Assembly (NCBI GenBank): GCA_938040315.1
Contig: CALHQW010000017.1
Location: 1 to 64,000, forward strand
Source of the DNA: an uncultured bacterium
GTDB taxonomy: Bacteria > Hydrothermota > Tepidihabitantia > Tepidihabitantales > DTDR01
Direction of reading: 5' to 3'
Length of the DNA stretch: 64,000 nucleotides
Shown here: piece by piece, positions 40,347-46,665 of the stretch
Layout of the letters: each line of letters starts with the position of its first letter
Position numbering within the stretch: the stretch's first letter is position 1
Notes under the pieces: generated by a model
Databases searched by the model: none
Seen by the model: only the letters and a program-made list of their open reading frames with translations
What the model was told of the DNA's origin: nothing
Program-made: the position numbers and the translations under genes

Positions 40347-40587
40347 TAATTCTTTTTACTAATATCTTCTTTGCCATACCGTAACCAATTGCTATTTTAC
40401 AATTTTTAACTTCAATTATTACCGGACCTCTAAAAAGTGCTTTACTTATCTTTTTTATTTTTACTCCCTCATAAATTCCCAAACTTTCTAAACGAAAACG
40501 CATTCTTAAACCACCAAGAATTTTCATAACTTCGGCATAAGAACCTTCCTCCAAACTTACCAAATCAACTAATTGAGAATTATTCAT
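40339..40587 (-). CDS. feoA: FeoA-family protein
   Basis: LRMRFRLESLGIYEGVKIKKISKALFRGPVIIEVKNCKIAIGYGMAKKILVK. Confidence 0.85.
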   Translation of the reverse strand: MNNSQLVDLVSLEEGSYAEVMKILGGLRMRFRLESLGIYEGVKIKKISKALFRGPVIIEVKNCKIAIGYGMAKKILVKRIND

Positions 40588-40828
40588 TTTTAATGATTAT
40601 CATCTTTGCCAAATTTTCGGGCAAAACAAGCATACCTTTCTTTATTTTAAAAATTAATAAATTATCAATTTTACCTATCTTCTCAATTTTACTTCCCTTT
40701 TTTATTCCCAAAAGATTCAATCTTTTTACATAAGAAGAAGAAAGATTAATCTTTTTTATCTTTGCCTTTTTATTAATTTCTAAACTCTTTAAATTATTAA
40801 CTTTTTTGACATTTTTCGCAGTACCCAT
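40580..40828 (-). CDS. Second FeoA-like protein
   Basis: Small SH3-like protein: SSYVKRLNLLGIKKGSKIEKIGKIDNLLIFKIKKGMLVLPENLAKMIIIK; overlaps the downstream feoA. Confidence 0.7.
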   Translation of the reverse strand: MGTAKNVKKVNNLKSLEINKKAKIKKINLSSSYVKRLNLLGIKKGSKIEKIGKIDNLLIFKIKKGMLVLPENLAKMIIIKNE

Positions 40829-41213
40829 AAATTTCCAATTTATGAAAAACCATTTTAAAATTATATTTTTCTGCCACTTTTTTTTGGATATTTTCTATCT
40901 TTTTCTCATTAAACTCAATTATCTTTCCACATTTTAAACAGATAAGATGATCATGATGATAAGAAAGATGAAGCGGTTCGTATCTTCTATTCTTCTCTTC
41001 AAATTTCTGTTCAATTACCAACCCGCACTCTTTTAAAAGTTTTAATGTCCGATAAATTGTTGAACGACTAACTTTTTTCCCCAATTTCTCATACAATTCA
41101 TCAACACTAAAATGCTTATCTGCCTTAAAGAAAAAATCAATAAACTTTTTTCTTTTTACTGATTTTTTTAATCCCTTTTCATTAAAATATTTTGCTAATA
41201 TCTCTTCCCACAT
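40797..41213 (-). CDS. Fur-family transcriptional regulator
   Basis: HFSVDELYEKLGKKVSRSTIYRTLKLLKECGLV, HHDHLICLKCGKIIEF, terminal YGYCEKCQKS. Start at ATG 41213 preferred because the listed 41270 start lies within the -35. Confidence 0.9.
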   Translation of the reverse strand: MWEEILAKYFNEKGLKKSVKRKKFIDFFFKADKHFSVDELYEKLGKKVSRSTIYRTLKLLKECGLVIEQKFEEKNRRYEPLHLSYHHDHLICLKCGKIIEFNEKKIENIQKKVAEKYNFKMVFHKLEIYGYCEKCQKS

Positions 41214-41220
41214 ATTAAAA

Positions 41221-41241
41221 TGAAATTGAAATTCATTTTCA
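41221..41241. promoter_or_regulatory. Near-perfect 21-bp palindrome overlapping the predicted fur start of transcription; candidate Fur-box-like operator
   Basis: TGAAATTGAAATTCATTTTCA versus reverse complement TGAAAATGAATTTCAATTTCA: one mismatched pair in 10, plus the centre base. Confidence 0.6.
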
Positions 41242-41242
41242 A

Positions 41243-41270
41243 AATATAACAAAAATCTAATAAAAGTCAA
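41243..41270 (-). promoter_or_regulatory. Sigma70-type promoter of fur-feoA-feoA-feoB
   Basis: TTGACT-N16-TATATT. Confidence 0.75.
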
Positions 41271-41338
41271 ACTTAAATCCTATTTTCATAAGCAAGTTTA
41301 AGACCTTTGGACAGTTTAAATTTCTTATAAAAAATCTC

Positions 41339-41366
41339 TTGACTTTTTGGAAATTTTATTTATTAT
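41339..41366 (+). promoter_or_regulatory. Sigma70-type promoter of the 41521 nuclease-like gene
   Basis: TTGACT-N16-TATTAT, about 150 nt upstream of the ATG. Confidence 0.6.
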
Positions 41367-41393
41367 AATTATTATAATATTTGTTCTTTGGAA

Positions 41394-41475
41394 ATTGCGG
41401 AAGGTACTTTTTATTGGGCATCAGAGAATAAAAAAGGCGGTTGAAGGGAAAAAGGCTCTACCCTTCTTTCGCAAT
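41394..41475 (+). other. Candidate structured 5' leader upstream of the nuclease-like gene
   Basis: ATTGCGGAAGG (41394-41404) pairs with TCTTTCGCAAT (41465-41475), 11 bp with two G-U. Competing stems: GAAGGG/CCCTTC (41443-41448/41461-41466) and GGCTC/GAGCC (41454-41458/41486-41490). Confidence 0.45.
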
Positions 41476-41520
41476 AAATAATTAGGAGCCAAAACATAAA
41501 TAAAAAAGGAGGTGATTTAA

Positions 41521-42489
41521 ATGGCTTATTTAATGAAAATATCTACAAGATTTTTAGGAGAACAAACTTATTTTAAGCGAGAAGCCGATTTGGAAAATTT
41601 TATTTTAACTCATCCACTCATTTTATCATCCTCAGAAGATGCTCCTGAAAATCTTGTTCCAGTTTATATCATTGGGCGGCAAGAAAAATTACCAAATAAT
41701 GACGGGATTATGGATTTAATTTGTTTAATTTGGAATCCTGATTTAGGAAAGTATCAAATTTGGGTATATGAGTTAAAAGTATATTCACAAAATTCTAATG
41801 ATGTTCAGCAACTTATTAACTATCTGAGAGCGATCGACGAAAATCAGGAGTATAGGAATGATCTCATCCAGAGAGCAGCAAATTTTGTAAAAGAATTTTT
41901 GGATAATAATATTAGAGGAGCTCTTTGTGCACAGGCCTTTTCTGATGAAGTGGTAAAAGGAATAATTGATGAAAATTTAAACCGCTCGTATGAAAAAAAA
42001 TTACTTGCTGTTAAGATATATCTTTTTCCAGTAGATAATGATATGTTTGCTTTGATTGAACCGTTCATAGGTGAAGAGAGAACTACCACAGGAGGAAGGC
42101 GTGCTACTCATTATGATGATATTCCTGATTTATCAGACTTTGAGTTAGAAGAAGAATTATTTAGAATTCTGTCAAATAGAAAAAAGACCCATCCCCAAAG
42201 ATTTGAGCAACTTAAAGCATTTTTAGAGTTATTTGTTAGTAACCCTAAGCGCAGTGTAAATCAAAAAGAATTGAGGGAAGAGTGGCAAAATAGAGGTCTT
42301 CCCAAAGAAGACAGGGGTCTGTCAGTTTCGCAGGTGTTGGGCTATAAAAATAATGGTGCACTACGAAAAATTTTGGAGTGGGATGTTATCCCACCGGATA
42401 TAAAAGATAACTATAGATTAAAAGATGAAAGATATGCAGAAGTTCTTAGAAATGTGCTTAATAGAATAAGTAAACAGCAGATAACATAG
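41521..42489 (+). CDS. Predicted PD-(D/E)XK nuclease-like protein (NucS/DUF91-like) with C-terminal helical domain
   Basis: DGIMDLICLIWNPDLGKYQIWVYELKVYSQNSNDVQQLINYLRAI has D...ExK...Q layout; followed by IRGALCAQAFSDEV. Strong RBS AAAAAAGGAGGTGATTT. Fold call is inference. Confidence 0.6.
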   Translation: MAYLMKISTRFLGEQTYFKREADLENFILTHPLILSSSEDAPENLVPVYIIGRQEKLPNNDGIMDLICLIWNPDLGKYQIWVYELKVYSQNSNDVQQLINYLRAIDENQEYRNDLIQRAANFVKEFLDNNIRGALCAQAFSDEVVKGIIDENLNRSYEKKLLAVKIYLFPVDNDMFALIEPFIGEERTTTGGRRATHYDDIPDLSDFELEEELFRILSNRKKTHPQRFEQLKAFLELFVSNPKRSVNQKELREEWQNRGLPKEDRGLSVSQVLGYKNNGALRKILEWDVIPPDIKDNYRLKDERYAEVLRNVLNRISKQQIT

Positions 42490-43291
42490 CCTATACGCTT
42501 TGAATTGATATCTTTGTTCTTTGGGATAGTGCTTTTTATTTGACCACAATGGTGCATAAGTTAGAGCCGTTAAATGATATTTTATTTAACAAATTGAATA
42601 AAAAATTGGTTCGTCACTAGAAAGGGGAGTGAAAAATTTAAAAGGCATTTCCATAAATTCATATAATATTGTAATTTTCTCCTTTATAATCTTTTCAAAA
42701 GGGACTATATTATGATGAATTTATTATATTTCTTTCCAAAAATAAAATAAAAATAGGATTTTGAAAATGGCAAAAGGAGATAAATAGGAAGAAGGGAGCA
42801 ATGCCCTCTAGGGCTACCAACGACAAAAAATAATCGGCGACAAACCTTTTTATAAATAAGCGACTTTTCTATTTTTAAAAAATGCGAGCATCTTATTTTT
42901 TTAATAAGTGATTGCCGCTTTTAATAAAGAAAGGAAAACGCCATTTATTATAAGATTTTCAATTATTTTTAATGGGAAAGGAATAAACTTTATAAAAAGG
43001 AATTATATTGAGATCTTTACCATTTTATATCGTTTAATGAGAAGGAGTGGATATATAATCGCAAACGCAACTTCTTCTTGTAGTACCGATCATTCTGATA
43101 TCTATTTATATCTATTTAATCAAGATTAACGGAAACAGCACTCTACTGATAATATTTCTATCCGATCCAAAAAATTATCCAATTTATTTTTAAAATATAA
43201 AAAAATCCAATAAAAAGTCAAACTTAAAAAATAAATGGTACAAAAATTGATTTTATATTAAATAAGAAAATATGAATTTAGCAAAGAAATT

Positions 43292-43329
43292 TGTAAAAAT
43301 TATTACCCATTGTAAAAATTATTGCTCAT
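43292..43329 (+). repeat. 19-bp tandem repeat (2 copies) upstream of the C25 gene
   Basis: TGTAAAAATTATTACCCAT followed directly by TGTAAAAATTATTGCTCAT, two mismatches. Confidence 0.85.
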
Positions 43330-43350
43330 TTTTTAAAAATGGGAGGCAAT

Positions 43351-46300
43351 ATGAAAACATTAAAAAAAGCAATTTTATTTTTAATAATATTATTTTATCC
43401 TATTTATCCCTTTATTGGTGCCCGGTATTTAATTATTACTCCTGATGAATTTGTAAATACTTTATTACCCTTAAGCCAATGGAAAACCAAAAAGGGAGTT
43501 CTTTCAAAAATTGTTAGTTTATCAGAAATTGGTGGAAATGAGCCTAATCTTATAAAAAATTATATCATTAATGCTTATAATAAATGGCAAATCAAACCAG
43601 AATATGTGTTATTAGTTGGTTATCCAAATTTATTAACAAGTTATTGGGATAATACTTATCGGATTTATACGGATAATTGGTTTTTTGATATTAATGGTGA
43701 TAATAAAGCAGATATTCCTTATGGTCGTTTTCCGGCAAGAAATACAAAGGAATGTTCATTGATGGTAAGAAAAACTTTGATTTATGAAAAATTTTTATCG
43801 CCTGATACCTTCTGGATAATTAAAGAGATGGGGATTATTAACGAAAATAACGACAGTGACGACACAATTTATTGGAATGATATTAGATATTTTGCTTCTT
43901 CCTTTAATAATAGATTGCTTTATTTTGACACTCTATCAAGATTAAATGATAATGATTGGCGAGATATAATTGAAGGTGTTAATGACGGAAGAGGAATAGT
44001 AGTTTATCGAGGTAATGGGGTAGGTAATTGGTATATCCCTTTTAATGTGAATCCCTATCTTGCTCAAAACTATTTTAATTTACCAATAATTCTTTCTTTT
44101 ACTTGTCAAACTTTAAGTTTGAACCCTTCCTTAGTAGAAACAACCGCTGTCGGTGGTAAATGGCTTTGGGCAGGAAATTATTATTATCCTACCGGCGCAG
44201 TTGCTTTTTTAGGAAGTAGTTATTCTTTTCTTTTCCTTGCTCGAGTAAGGAGTTGTGGTTTACGCGCTTTTATTAAAAATCTCCTTATTGAAAAGGATAA
44301 TATTTTAGGACACTGCTTTCTAAAAGCAAAAGATTCCATGTCATATTGGGATTTGCCCTCAAGTATTGGTCTAAATCTTTTTGGCGACCCGGAATTAAAT
44401 ATTTGGACAGAAAAACCAAAACCAATTATTGTTATTTATCCAAATCAAATATCTCCCCAACAACAATTCTTTACCGTTGAAGTTTATAATGAAGATAACG
44501 AACCTTTAAAAGATGCTTTGGTTTGCCTTAAAAAGGGCGACACCCTACCTTTTGAGTTATATCATTATGGCTATACTGATAGTACTGGAAAAATTAGATT
44601 TTTAATAAACCCACAAACAACCGGCATTATGGAAATAACTGTTAATGCCAAAAATTATTTTCCTTATGAGGGTTTTTGTAGTATTGTAAGGGAAGAACCT
44701 TTTTTAATATTTGATTCCCTTTCTATTTTTGATTTTCCTCCTTTAGGAAATGGTAATCTTCAAATTAACCCCAACGAAACAATTTTATTTAAAATCAAAA
44801 TAAAAAATACTGGCAGAACAATGGCAGAAAGTGTTTTTGGGAAATTATCTACCCAAAATAATTTTGTTACTCTTTGTGATTCGGTGGCTTTTTATGGTAA
44901 TATTTTGCCTGAAGAAAGAAAAGAGAATTTAAATTATTTTAAAGTATATTTTACTCATAATGTACCTGATGGGTTTATTAACTTTAATTTAATTTTAGAA
45001 GATAAAGACAACCATATTTGGCAAATTCCTTTTTGGGTAGAAGTATATAAAGGGAATCTCCTATTTTTAAATTATCAAATTAAAGATACTCTTCCTTTTG
45101 GTAATAATAACCAATTATTAGAACCAGGAGAAGGAGTCCTTTTTTATCTCACTTTTAAAAATGAAGGAAACGACCAATTTCAAAATGTGTATTGTCGATT
45201 AAAAACAAATAATCAATATTTAAAAATTAGTGATTCCTTAGGAAGTTTTGGAGAAATTTTACCCCAACAAATTAAAACCAATCTTTCTGACCCATTGGCT
45301 TTCTATTTATCGCCTTTCGTTATCCCAGGAGATAATATTTTGCTAAAAGTATATTTTTTAGCAAAAAATCCTACTTATATAATTGAAGATTCCTTTGATT
45401 TAATTTTAAATATTAGCGGAGCAAATTATAATTTACCCAGCGGACCTGATGACTATGGATATTATTTATATGATGATAACGATTTTCTTTATGGTAATGC
45501 GCCACAATTTAATTGGATTGAAATTTCCACTATTGGTGAAGAAATACCCGTAGTTTCCGAAAGTGATGATACTATTATTACCATTCCTTTACCTTTTCGT
45601 TTTAAATTTTATGGTAATTATTATGATTCAATAACTATTTCTTCCAATGGTTTTATCTCTTTAGGAAGAATAGAAAATTTTTTAGGAAGAGATAATTTAT
45701 ATTTACCGAATAATTTTAACATTAATATTATTGCTCCTTTTTGGGATAATCTTGATACTAGAAATATTTCCAGAATTCAGCCAGCAATTTATCAATATTA
45801 CGACAATGAAAATCACATTTATATAATTGAATATTATGATGTTTACCATTGGGATGCCCGCTCCCAAAGAGAAACTTTTGAAATGATTTTTTATGACCCT
45901 AATTATTATCCTACAATTACTGGCGATGGAGAGATTATCTTTCAATATCAACAAGTAACAAACTCTAGTAGTAATACTGTTGGCATCCAAAAGGGAGAAA
46001 ATAATTACGGTTTTACCTATCTTTTTAATAATGAATATCATCCCAATGCTTCCTTCATAGGTTCTAACCGAGCAATTAAAATTACCACTAACCCACCAAC
46101 TATTGCTGCTTCTCCTTTTATTTCTTTGGAAAATCTTACAATTAGTGACCATTTAGGAAATAATAATGGAATCATTGAAATTGGCGAGCCAATTTTATTA
46201 TCAGTGACATTAAAAAATTTGGGTAACTTAAGGGGAAATAATCTTTTAGCAATTTTGGAAAAAAGGGATAATGACTGTCTAATTAGCGAATCAATTTTTG

Positions 46301-46665
46301 ATATTGGTGATTTATTACCGAACGAAGAGAGTAATAACTCAACAAATCCTTTTCTCTTTTTTGTGAATAATAATCCGAATGATACCATTTTAGATTTTCT
46401 TTTAAAAATAATTGGTGAAAATTATCTATCAGGAATCTATTTTTCCTTAGGCATCGCTCAATTTTCAAATATAAAAGAAAAAGAAGAGAAAATATTGCCC
46501 ACAATTATTAAAGAAAAAGAATTTAGAAATCTTTCGAAATTAGAAAAAAATATCAAAATTTTTGATTCCTCTGGAAGAAAAATTAAAAAGGAAAATATAA
46601 AAAAGGGAATTTATTTTATAAAAAATGGAAAAAGGATTAGAAAAATAATTTTATTTGACTTTTAA
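43351..46665 (+). CDS. Secreted C25 (gingipain-like) family protein with C-terminal T9SS-type sorting domain
   Basis: Signal peptide; ARYLIITPDEFVNTLLPLSQWKTKKGV; VNDGRGIVVYRGNGVGNW...LPIILSFTCQT; repeated adhesion-like domains; terminal KIFDSSGRKIKKENIKKGIYFIKNGKRIRKIILF. GGGAGG RBS before ATG 43351. Confidence 0.8.
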   Translation: MKTLKKAILFLIILFYPIYPFIGARYLIITPDEFVNTLLPLSQWKTKKGVLSKIVSLSEIGGNEPNLIKNYIINAYNKWQIKPEYVLLVGYPNLLTSYWDNTYRIYTDNWFFDINGDNKADIPYGRFPARNTKECSLMVRKTLIYEKFLSPDTFWIIKEMGIINENNDSDDTIYWNDIRYFASSFNNRLLYFDTLSRLNDNDWRDIIEGVNDGRGIVVYRGNGVGNWYIPFNVNPYLAQNYFNLPIILSFTCQTLSLNPSLVETTAVGGKWLWAGNYYYPTGAVAFLGSSYSFLFLARVRSCGLRAFIKNLLIEKDNILGHCFLKAKDSMSYWDLPSSIGLNLFGDPELNIWTEKPKPIIVIYPNQISPQQQFFTVEVYNEDNEPLKDALVCLKKGDTLPFELYHYGYTDSTGKIRFLINPQTTGIMEITVNAKNYFPYEGFCSIVREEPFLIFDSLSIFDFPPLGNGNLQINPNETILFKIKIKNTGRTMAESVFGKLSTQNNFVTLCDSVAFYGNILPEERKENLNYFKVYFTHNVPDGFINFNLILEDKDNHIWQIPFWVEVYKGNLLFLNYQIKDTLPFGNNNQLLEPGEGVLFYLTFKNEGNDQFQNVYCRLKTNNQYLKISDSLGSFGEILPQQIKTNLSDPLAFYLSPFVIPGDNILLKVYFLAKNPTYIIEDSFDLILNISGANYNLPSGPDDYGYYLYDDNDFLYGNAPQFNWIEISTIGEEIPVVSESDDTIITIPLPFRFKFYGNYYDSITISSNGFISLGRIENFLGRDNLYLPNNFNINIIAPFWDNLDTRNISRIQPAIYQYYDNENHIYIIEYYDVYHWDARSQRETFEMIFYDPNYYPTITGDGEIIFQYQQVTNSSSNTVGIQKGENNYGFTYLFNNEYHPNASFIGSNRAIKITTNPPTIAASPFISLENLTISDHLGNNNGIIEIGEPILLSVTLKNLGNLRGNNLLAILEKRDNDCLISESIFDIGDLLPNEESNNSTNPFLFFVNNNPNDTILDFLLKIIGENYLSGIYFSLGIAQFSNIKEKEEKILPTIIKEKEFRNLSKLEKNIKIFDSSGRKIKKENIKKGIYFIKNGKRIRKIILFDF

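Follow-up and report, generated by a model that had tools for sequence, protein, structure and literature searches.

The protein encoded at positions 41521..42489, on the forward strand of the 64,000-nucleotide stretch of DNA analysed here (the window), is very probably a PD-(D/E)XK nuclease of the NucS_C/DUF91 branch, which is predicted to cleave DNA and is extended by a C-terminal winged-helix-like domain. The coding sequence (322 aa) was assigned through its open reading frame, a family profile and Foldseek comparison. The analysis establishes nuclease homology, conserved active-site residues, a fold match, and a difference between genomes in the presence of the gene at its site. Beyond this, we infer catalysis, DNA binding and defence, and slightly favour the reading of the protein as a mobile DNase of defence type that is encoded by a single gene and reads DNA through a winged helix. 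Unless stated otherwise, all features given below lie on the forward strand.

Nuclease core and active site

The initial annotation had proposed a NucS/DUF91-type PD-(D/E)XK nuclease from a D...ExK pattern followed by a glutamine-bearing helix, and both the pattern and the assignment hold well beyond chance. In a family alignment of 20 sequences, a leave-one-out profile of the 19 other members finds the window protein with 30.1 bits and E=1e-7 among 5091 sequences. When L002 (a distant same-phylum relative, 27% identical over window protein residues 4-114) was removed as well, the profile still matches with E=1.2e-5. Among 5000 shuffled versions of the window protein, none exceeded 12.7 bits with the 19-member profile or 12.0 bits with the profile also lacking L002. 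The NCBIfam NucS model aligns to residues 15-154 with E=0.0066, at 15.5 bits against a cut-off of 216, and a Pfam search of the window protein reported neither PF01939 nor any other meaningful family match. Among PDB sequences, residues 9-70 hit a P-granule scaffold with E=0.015, which we regard as a chance match.

The nuclease domain comprises about residues 20-183 (41578..42069), as delimited by the A4 alignment and the AF2 model, in which the block-mean pLDDT is 74-95 (mean of the whole AlphaFold model, 80.8). The only PDB structures matched by the model at E<0.001 in Foldseek are NucS 2vld and EndoMS 5gke (probability 1.00, E 9e-5 to 9e-4), and the low TM-scores of the nuclease (0.23-0.34) arise because the whole chain was compared. 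Neither a non-nuclease fold nor homologues without the D/ExK residues, the observations that had been named as contrary to the proposal, were found: the fold matches are nucleases, and D, E, and K are invariant in 20/20 relatives.

The active-site residues of NucS are E127, D160, E174, K176, Q187, and Y191 (PMC7343888), and their equivalents were counted along the alignment of L003, another distant same-phylum relative, with Pyrococcus NucS 2vld; L003 scores above the NucS_C gathering threshold in its own right. E21 (41581..41583) corresponds to E127 and is glutamate in 17/20 alignment rows, and D65 (41713..41715) corresponds to D160 (20/20 rows, and the L003-2vld alignment). E84-L-K86 (41770..41778) is the counterpart of E174-x-K176, with both E and K in every row, and Q97...Y101 (41809..41823) that of Q187...Y191 (Q in 20/20 and Y in 19/20 rows). 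These residues fit the DUF91 motif E-D-E(I/L/V)K (PMC1189080) together with a Q...Y helix. The E127 position lacks glutamate in three close C-terminal relatives (P in L003, T in L005, R in L054); in L003, glutamates flank the position on either side, so that the register may be shifted, and L054 reads as shortened at its N-terminus.

The C-terminal domain and the wider modular family

A separate, helical and possibly DNA-binding C-terminal domain had also been claimed, which agrees with the models. The linker (residues 184-205, 42070..42135) shows pLDDT <50 at 186-199, supporting a split into two domains, and residues 206-319 (42136..42477) form a winged-helix-like domain that has homologues in the C-terminal parts of L003, L005, L054, and L070. 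These four are the only other proteins found with this tail, and no other examined family tail is homologous. L003 matches window protein residues 198-319, and the two tails align in BLASTP with E=2e-6. Modelled alone, the domain reaches a pLDDT of 81.6 and a pTM of 0.77, with the element order H-H-H-H-H-E-E-H. Its Foldseek list includes PadR, the replication terminator protein (RTP), the ORC2 winged helix, LOTUS, and forkhead; the best match has E=0.12 and probability 0.85, and with all matches at E>0.1 none is individually significant. The winged helix is thus supported by a consistent list dominated by winged helices, and no single match proves the fold. The domain probably binds DNA. When 400 genomes from the phylum to which the Anaerolineales relative belongs were searched with a profile of the C-terminal domain, only the already-known genome was recovered, with a second protein there. 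Two weak C-terminal matches, L074 and L076, were set aside as chance hits to ordinary reading frames (by eye, release-factor-like and membrane-fusion-protein-like).

Relatives of the window protein were found in very few members of its own phylum and in neither congener (G001, G002). A tblastn search of the window protein against plasmids and phages gave no match, scans of viral contigs gave no confirmed relative, and a scan of genome contigs gave one. The nuclease head itself is widespread: L003 has matches in 21 of 147 genomes of the same phylum and in 111 plasmid records. PADLOC PDC-S11/PDC-S18, which are single-gene phage-defence candidates, are matched by 18/20 alignment members, with L003 reaching E=1.2e-44 against PDC-S11 over its first 200 residues only; the window protein has no PADLOC match up to E=10. 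The tails of the family vary, being DUF4268 in some members (record annotation) and EVE/PUA-like in others (by eye), and a winged-helix-like tail like the one here is absent from all annotated plasmid relatives. The plasmid sequences L080-L091 combine NucS_C heads with several tail types, DUF4268 and EVE/PUA-like among them, and several lie next to type I RM or BREX genes. In Bacillus phage G, gp54 (L094 11934-12824, unannotated) carries a NucS/DUF91-type head (hhalign 94.9% to the A4 profile).

The wider family occurs in type I restriction operons, with a methyltransferase/HsdS pair, with BREX brxL and pglZ, and with SNF2/methyltransferase genes; these neighbourhoods are individual examples rather than a count against background, and come from a dozen plasmid records plus a few contigs. 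An SLFN_AlbA_2 gene is found close to L002 and a SocA-Panacea gene close to L005, and a gene with a sub-threshold match to HhH-GPD comes after that of L003. Since the occurrence of the NucS C-terminal domain in other architectures has been reported (PMC5290159), this kind of protein is already known. Of the unrecognised architecture suggested by the initial annotation, what stands is the subtype with the winged-helix-like tail, which is rare and unmatched in the libraries searched; the head with interchangeable tails is catalogued (PDC-S11/S18; PMC5290159). The window protein thus represents an uncommon form within a modular nuclease family that has been catalogued before.

The locus and its empty counterpart

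The gene had been described as a stand-alone ORF with a very strong ribosome-binding site, in an ORF-poor stretch between metal-regulation genes and a secreted protein gene, and this description holds. The ORF starts with ATG and is preceded closely by a near-perfect Shine-Dalgarno sequence (AAGGAGGTGAT, 41506..41516). To its left lie the FeoB, FeoA, and Fur genes (minus strand) and to its right a Peptidase_C25 secreted protein (from 43339/43351), neighbours that leave the window copy outside a defence island; positions 42490-43338 hold no convincing ORF, and no partner gene adjoins. Of the claimed promoter of its own, a promoter-like TTGACT-16-TATTAT is present at 41339..41366, agreeing with the consensus at 10/12 positions. 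It is to be read as a consensus match only because the AT-rich region around the gene gives many such matches (23 found vs 11 expected).

Several other short sequences were observed nearby. A promoter-type string, TTGAC..TATAAT followed by TTTGTTCTTTGG (41327-41396), recurs at many sites in this genome and in two congeners, and a similar TTTGTTCTTTGG string lies 3' of the nuclease gene at 42510. A 19-bp unit (TTGTAAAAATTATT...CA) stands in two tandem copies at 43291-43328, just 5' of the C25-peptidase gene. The C25-peptidase-type secreted protein (43351-46665) has ~30 full or partial matches per congener; for a small genome, this is a large family of paralogues.

In the congener G002, only ~130 bp lie between fur and the C25-peptidase gene. 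Window positions 40510-41278 and 43181-44999 align to G002 (84%) with overlapping ends, the shared part being a 48-bp direct repeat whose left (41230..41277) and right (43181..43228) copies show 83% ungapped identity and flank the insert, and which is single copy in G002. A segment of ~1.9 kb (41278..43180, no strand assigned) is therefore present here and absent in G002. In the congener G001, fur is followed by tRNA-Glu, with no nuclease there. Insertion at the 48-bp repeats fits best; alternatively, the repeats may have recombined and the segment been lost, leaving the empty site in G002. The gene has the base composition of its host (GC3 z=0.04), and its codon usage ranks 4/33, at the low end of normal among window genes. 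Neither indicates that the gene arrived from a foreign source very recently. A transposon was rejected as an explanation, the insert having no transposase gene.

The insert contains only the nuclease gene and a dispersed repeat of ~230-250 bp downstream of it (42724..42973). Three more copies are found in the genome, all intergenic (G000 C2:38700-38930 (-), C28:12323-12571 (+), and C38:3623-3792 (+)), which are 72-80% identical to the window copy and share a conserved core, GGGAGC..CCCT.TAGGGC. A structured RNA in this repeat was considered and discarded, as the repeat matches nothing in Rfam and its four copies show no covariation.

Proposed function and relation to known systems

In the proposed mechanism, a metal-dependent PD-(D/E)XK DNA endonuclease core (residues 20-183) with a complete active site (E21, D65, E84, K86, Q97, Y101) would be joined by a flexible linker to the winged-helix-like domain (206-319), which would most likely bind DNA and thereby control whether the nuclease cuts and at which place. 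The gene would act alone, on a cassette that was carried into, or lost from, its site, and the protein would most likely act on incoming phage or plasmid DNA as a restriction-like effector. Action against incoming DNA is proposed by analogy because relatives adjoin type I restriction, BREX, and methyltransferase genes, and, on these wider-family neighbourhoods, a defence role for the window protein itself is an even call. That a winged helix, instead of an EVE modification reader or DUF4268, directs a NucS-type nuclease to foreign DNA, and hence represents an undescribed reader class, is conceivable but rather doubtful.

The nuclease could instead serve a mobile element (in its own transfer or in the exclusion of competitors) or be a passenger of an old insertion, with no part in host defence. 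The direct repeats around the insert, the recurrence of the inner repeat elsewhere in the genome, the many plasmid-borne relatives in the wider family, and the same nuclease head in the phage G protein are all consistent with this. However, the insert carries no transposase, integrase, or other element gene, the frame is intact, GC3 is host-like, and codon usage stays within the range of other window genes, so that we regard this explanation as unlikely. A repair or structure-specific nuclease that acts like EndoMS/NucS on mismatches, flaps, or deaminated DNA would share the nuclease core and active site of NucS, and the HhH-GPD-like gene after L003 could be taken in its favour. Nevertheless, the mismatch-type nuclease suggested by the initial annotation is disfavoured because the protein lacks the N-terminal DNA/mismatch-binding domain found in NucS and the genome encodes MutS. 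With two MutS_V matches over the cut-off in its own genome, the protein would not be standing in for MutS-MutL in a genome lacking them, and its absence from both congeners tested and its presence in very few members of the phylum are unlike housekeeping repair. A repair role is accordingly less probable still.

A winged-helix-like tail on the product of a lone gene adjoining fur might also point to a DNA-binding regulator or sensor with a non-cutting nuclease fold. Inactive PD-(D/E)XK domains usually lose catalytic residues, whereas the core catalytic residues are all kept in the window protein and its family, which makes this the least probable of the alternatives and quite improbable overall. 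The mobile single-gene defence-type DNase remains the reading that we prefer.

Although mismatch repair is the main context in which the NucS-type nuclease head is known, many more proteins combine this head with exchangeable tails and are commonly encoded on plasmids and within restriction or BREX loci. This describes a modular nuclease system in which the tail probably sets the target, and the rare winged-helix-like tail would add a directly testable type of reader. The pair of occupied and empty sites lets genomes that carry the nuclease gene be compared, as a natural experiment, with genomes that lack it. As the libraries searched do not name the window protein, such copies stay "hypothetical".

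The closest known systems are NucS and EndoMS (PF01939 NucS_C; 2vld, 5gke), with which the window protein shares the nuclease core fold and counterparts of all six active-site residues. Unlike them, it has no N-terminal DNA/mismatch-binding domain, its core starting at residue ~20 with one short strand before it; the nuclease comes first and the winged-helix-like domain follows, and its score lies below every curated cut-off. The same N-terminal nuclease module is found in PDC-S11/PDC-S18, to which the window protein is connected through the bridging homologue L003. In contrast to L003 and L005, whose PDC-S11 matches end before the C-terminal domain, it matches no PDC model. The plasmid proteins annotated as "DUF91 / endonuclease NucS domain-containing" and "DUF4268 domain-containing" are likewise single proteins of similar length with a NucS_C-type head of ~200 aa, yet theirs is a DUF4268 or EVE/PUA-like tail encoded in RM/BREX operons, whereas the window protein has a winged-helix-like tail and stands alone. 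Bacillus phage G gp54 has a similar nuclease head and is matched by the whole window model in Foldseek (E=1.4e-9), but this phage protein has no sequence match to the C-terminal half of the window protein. The same two-part architecture with a homologous C-terminal domain is seen in L003 and L005, from the same phylum, and in L054 and L070 from Anaerolineales; compared with L003 and L005 (~26% identity), the window protein has extra residues before D65 and between D65 and E84.
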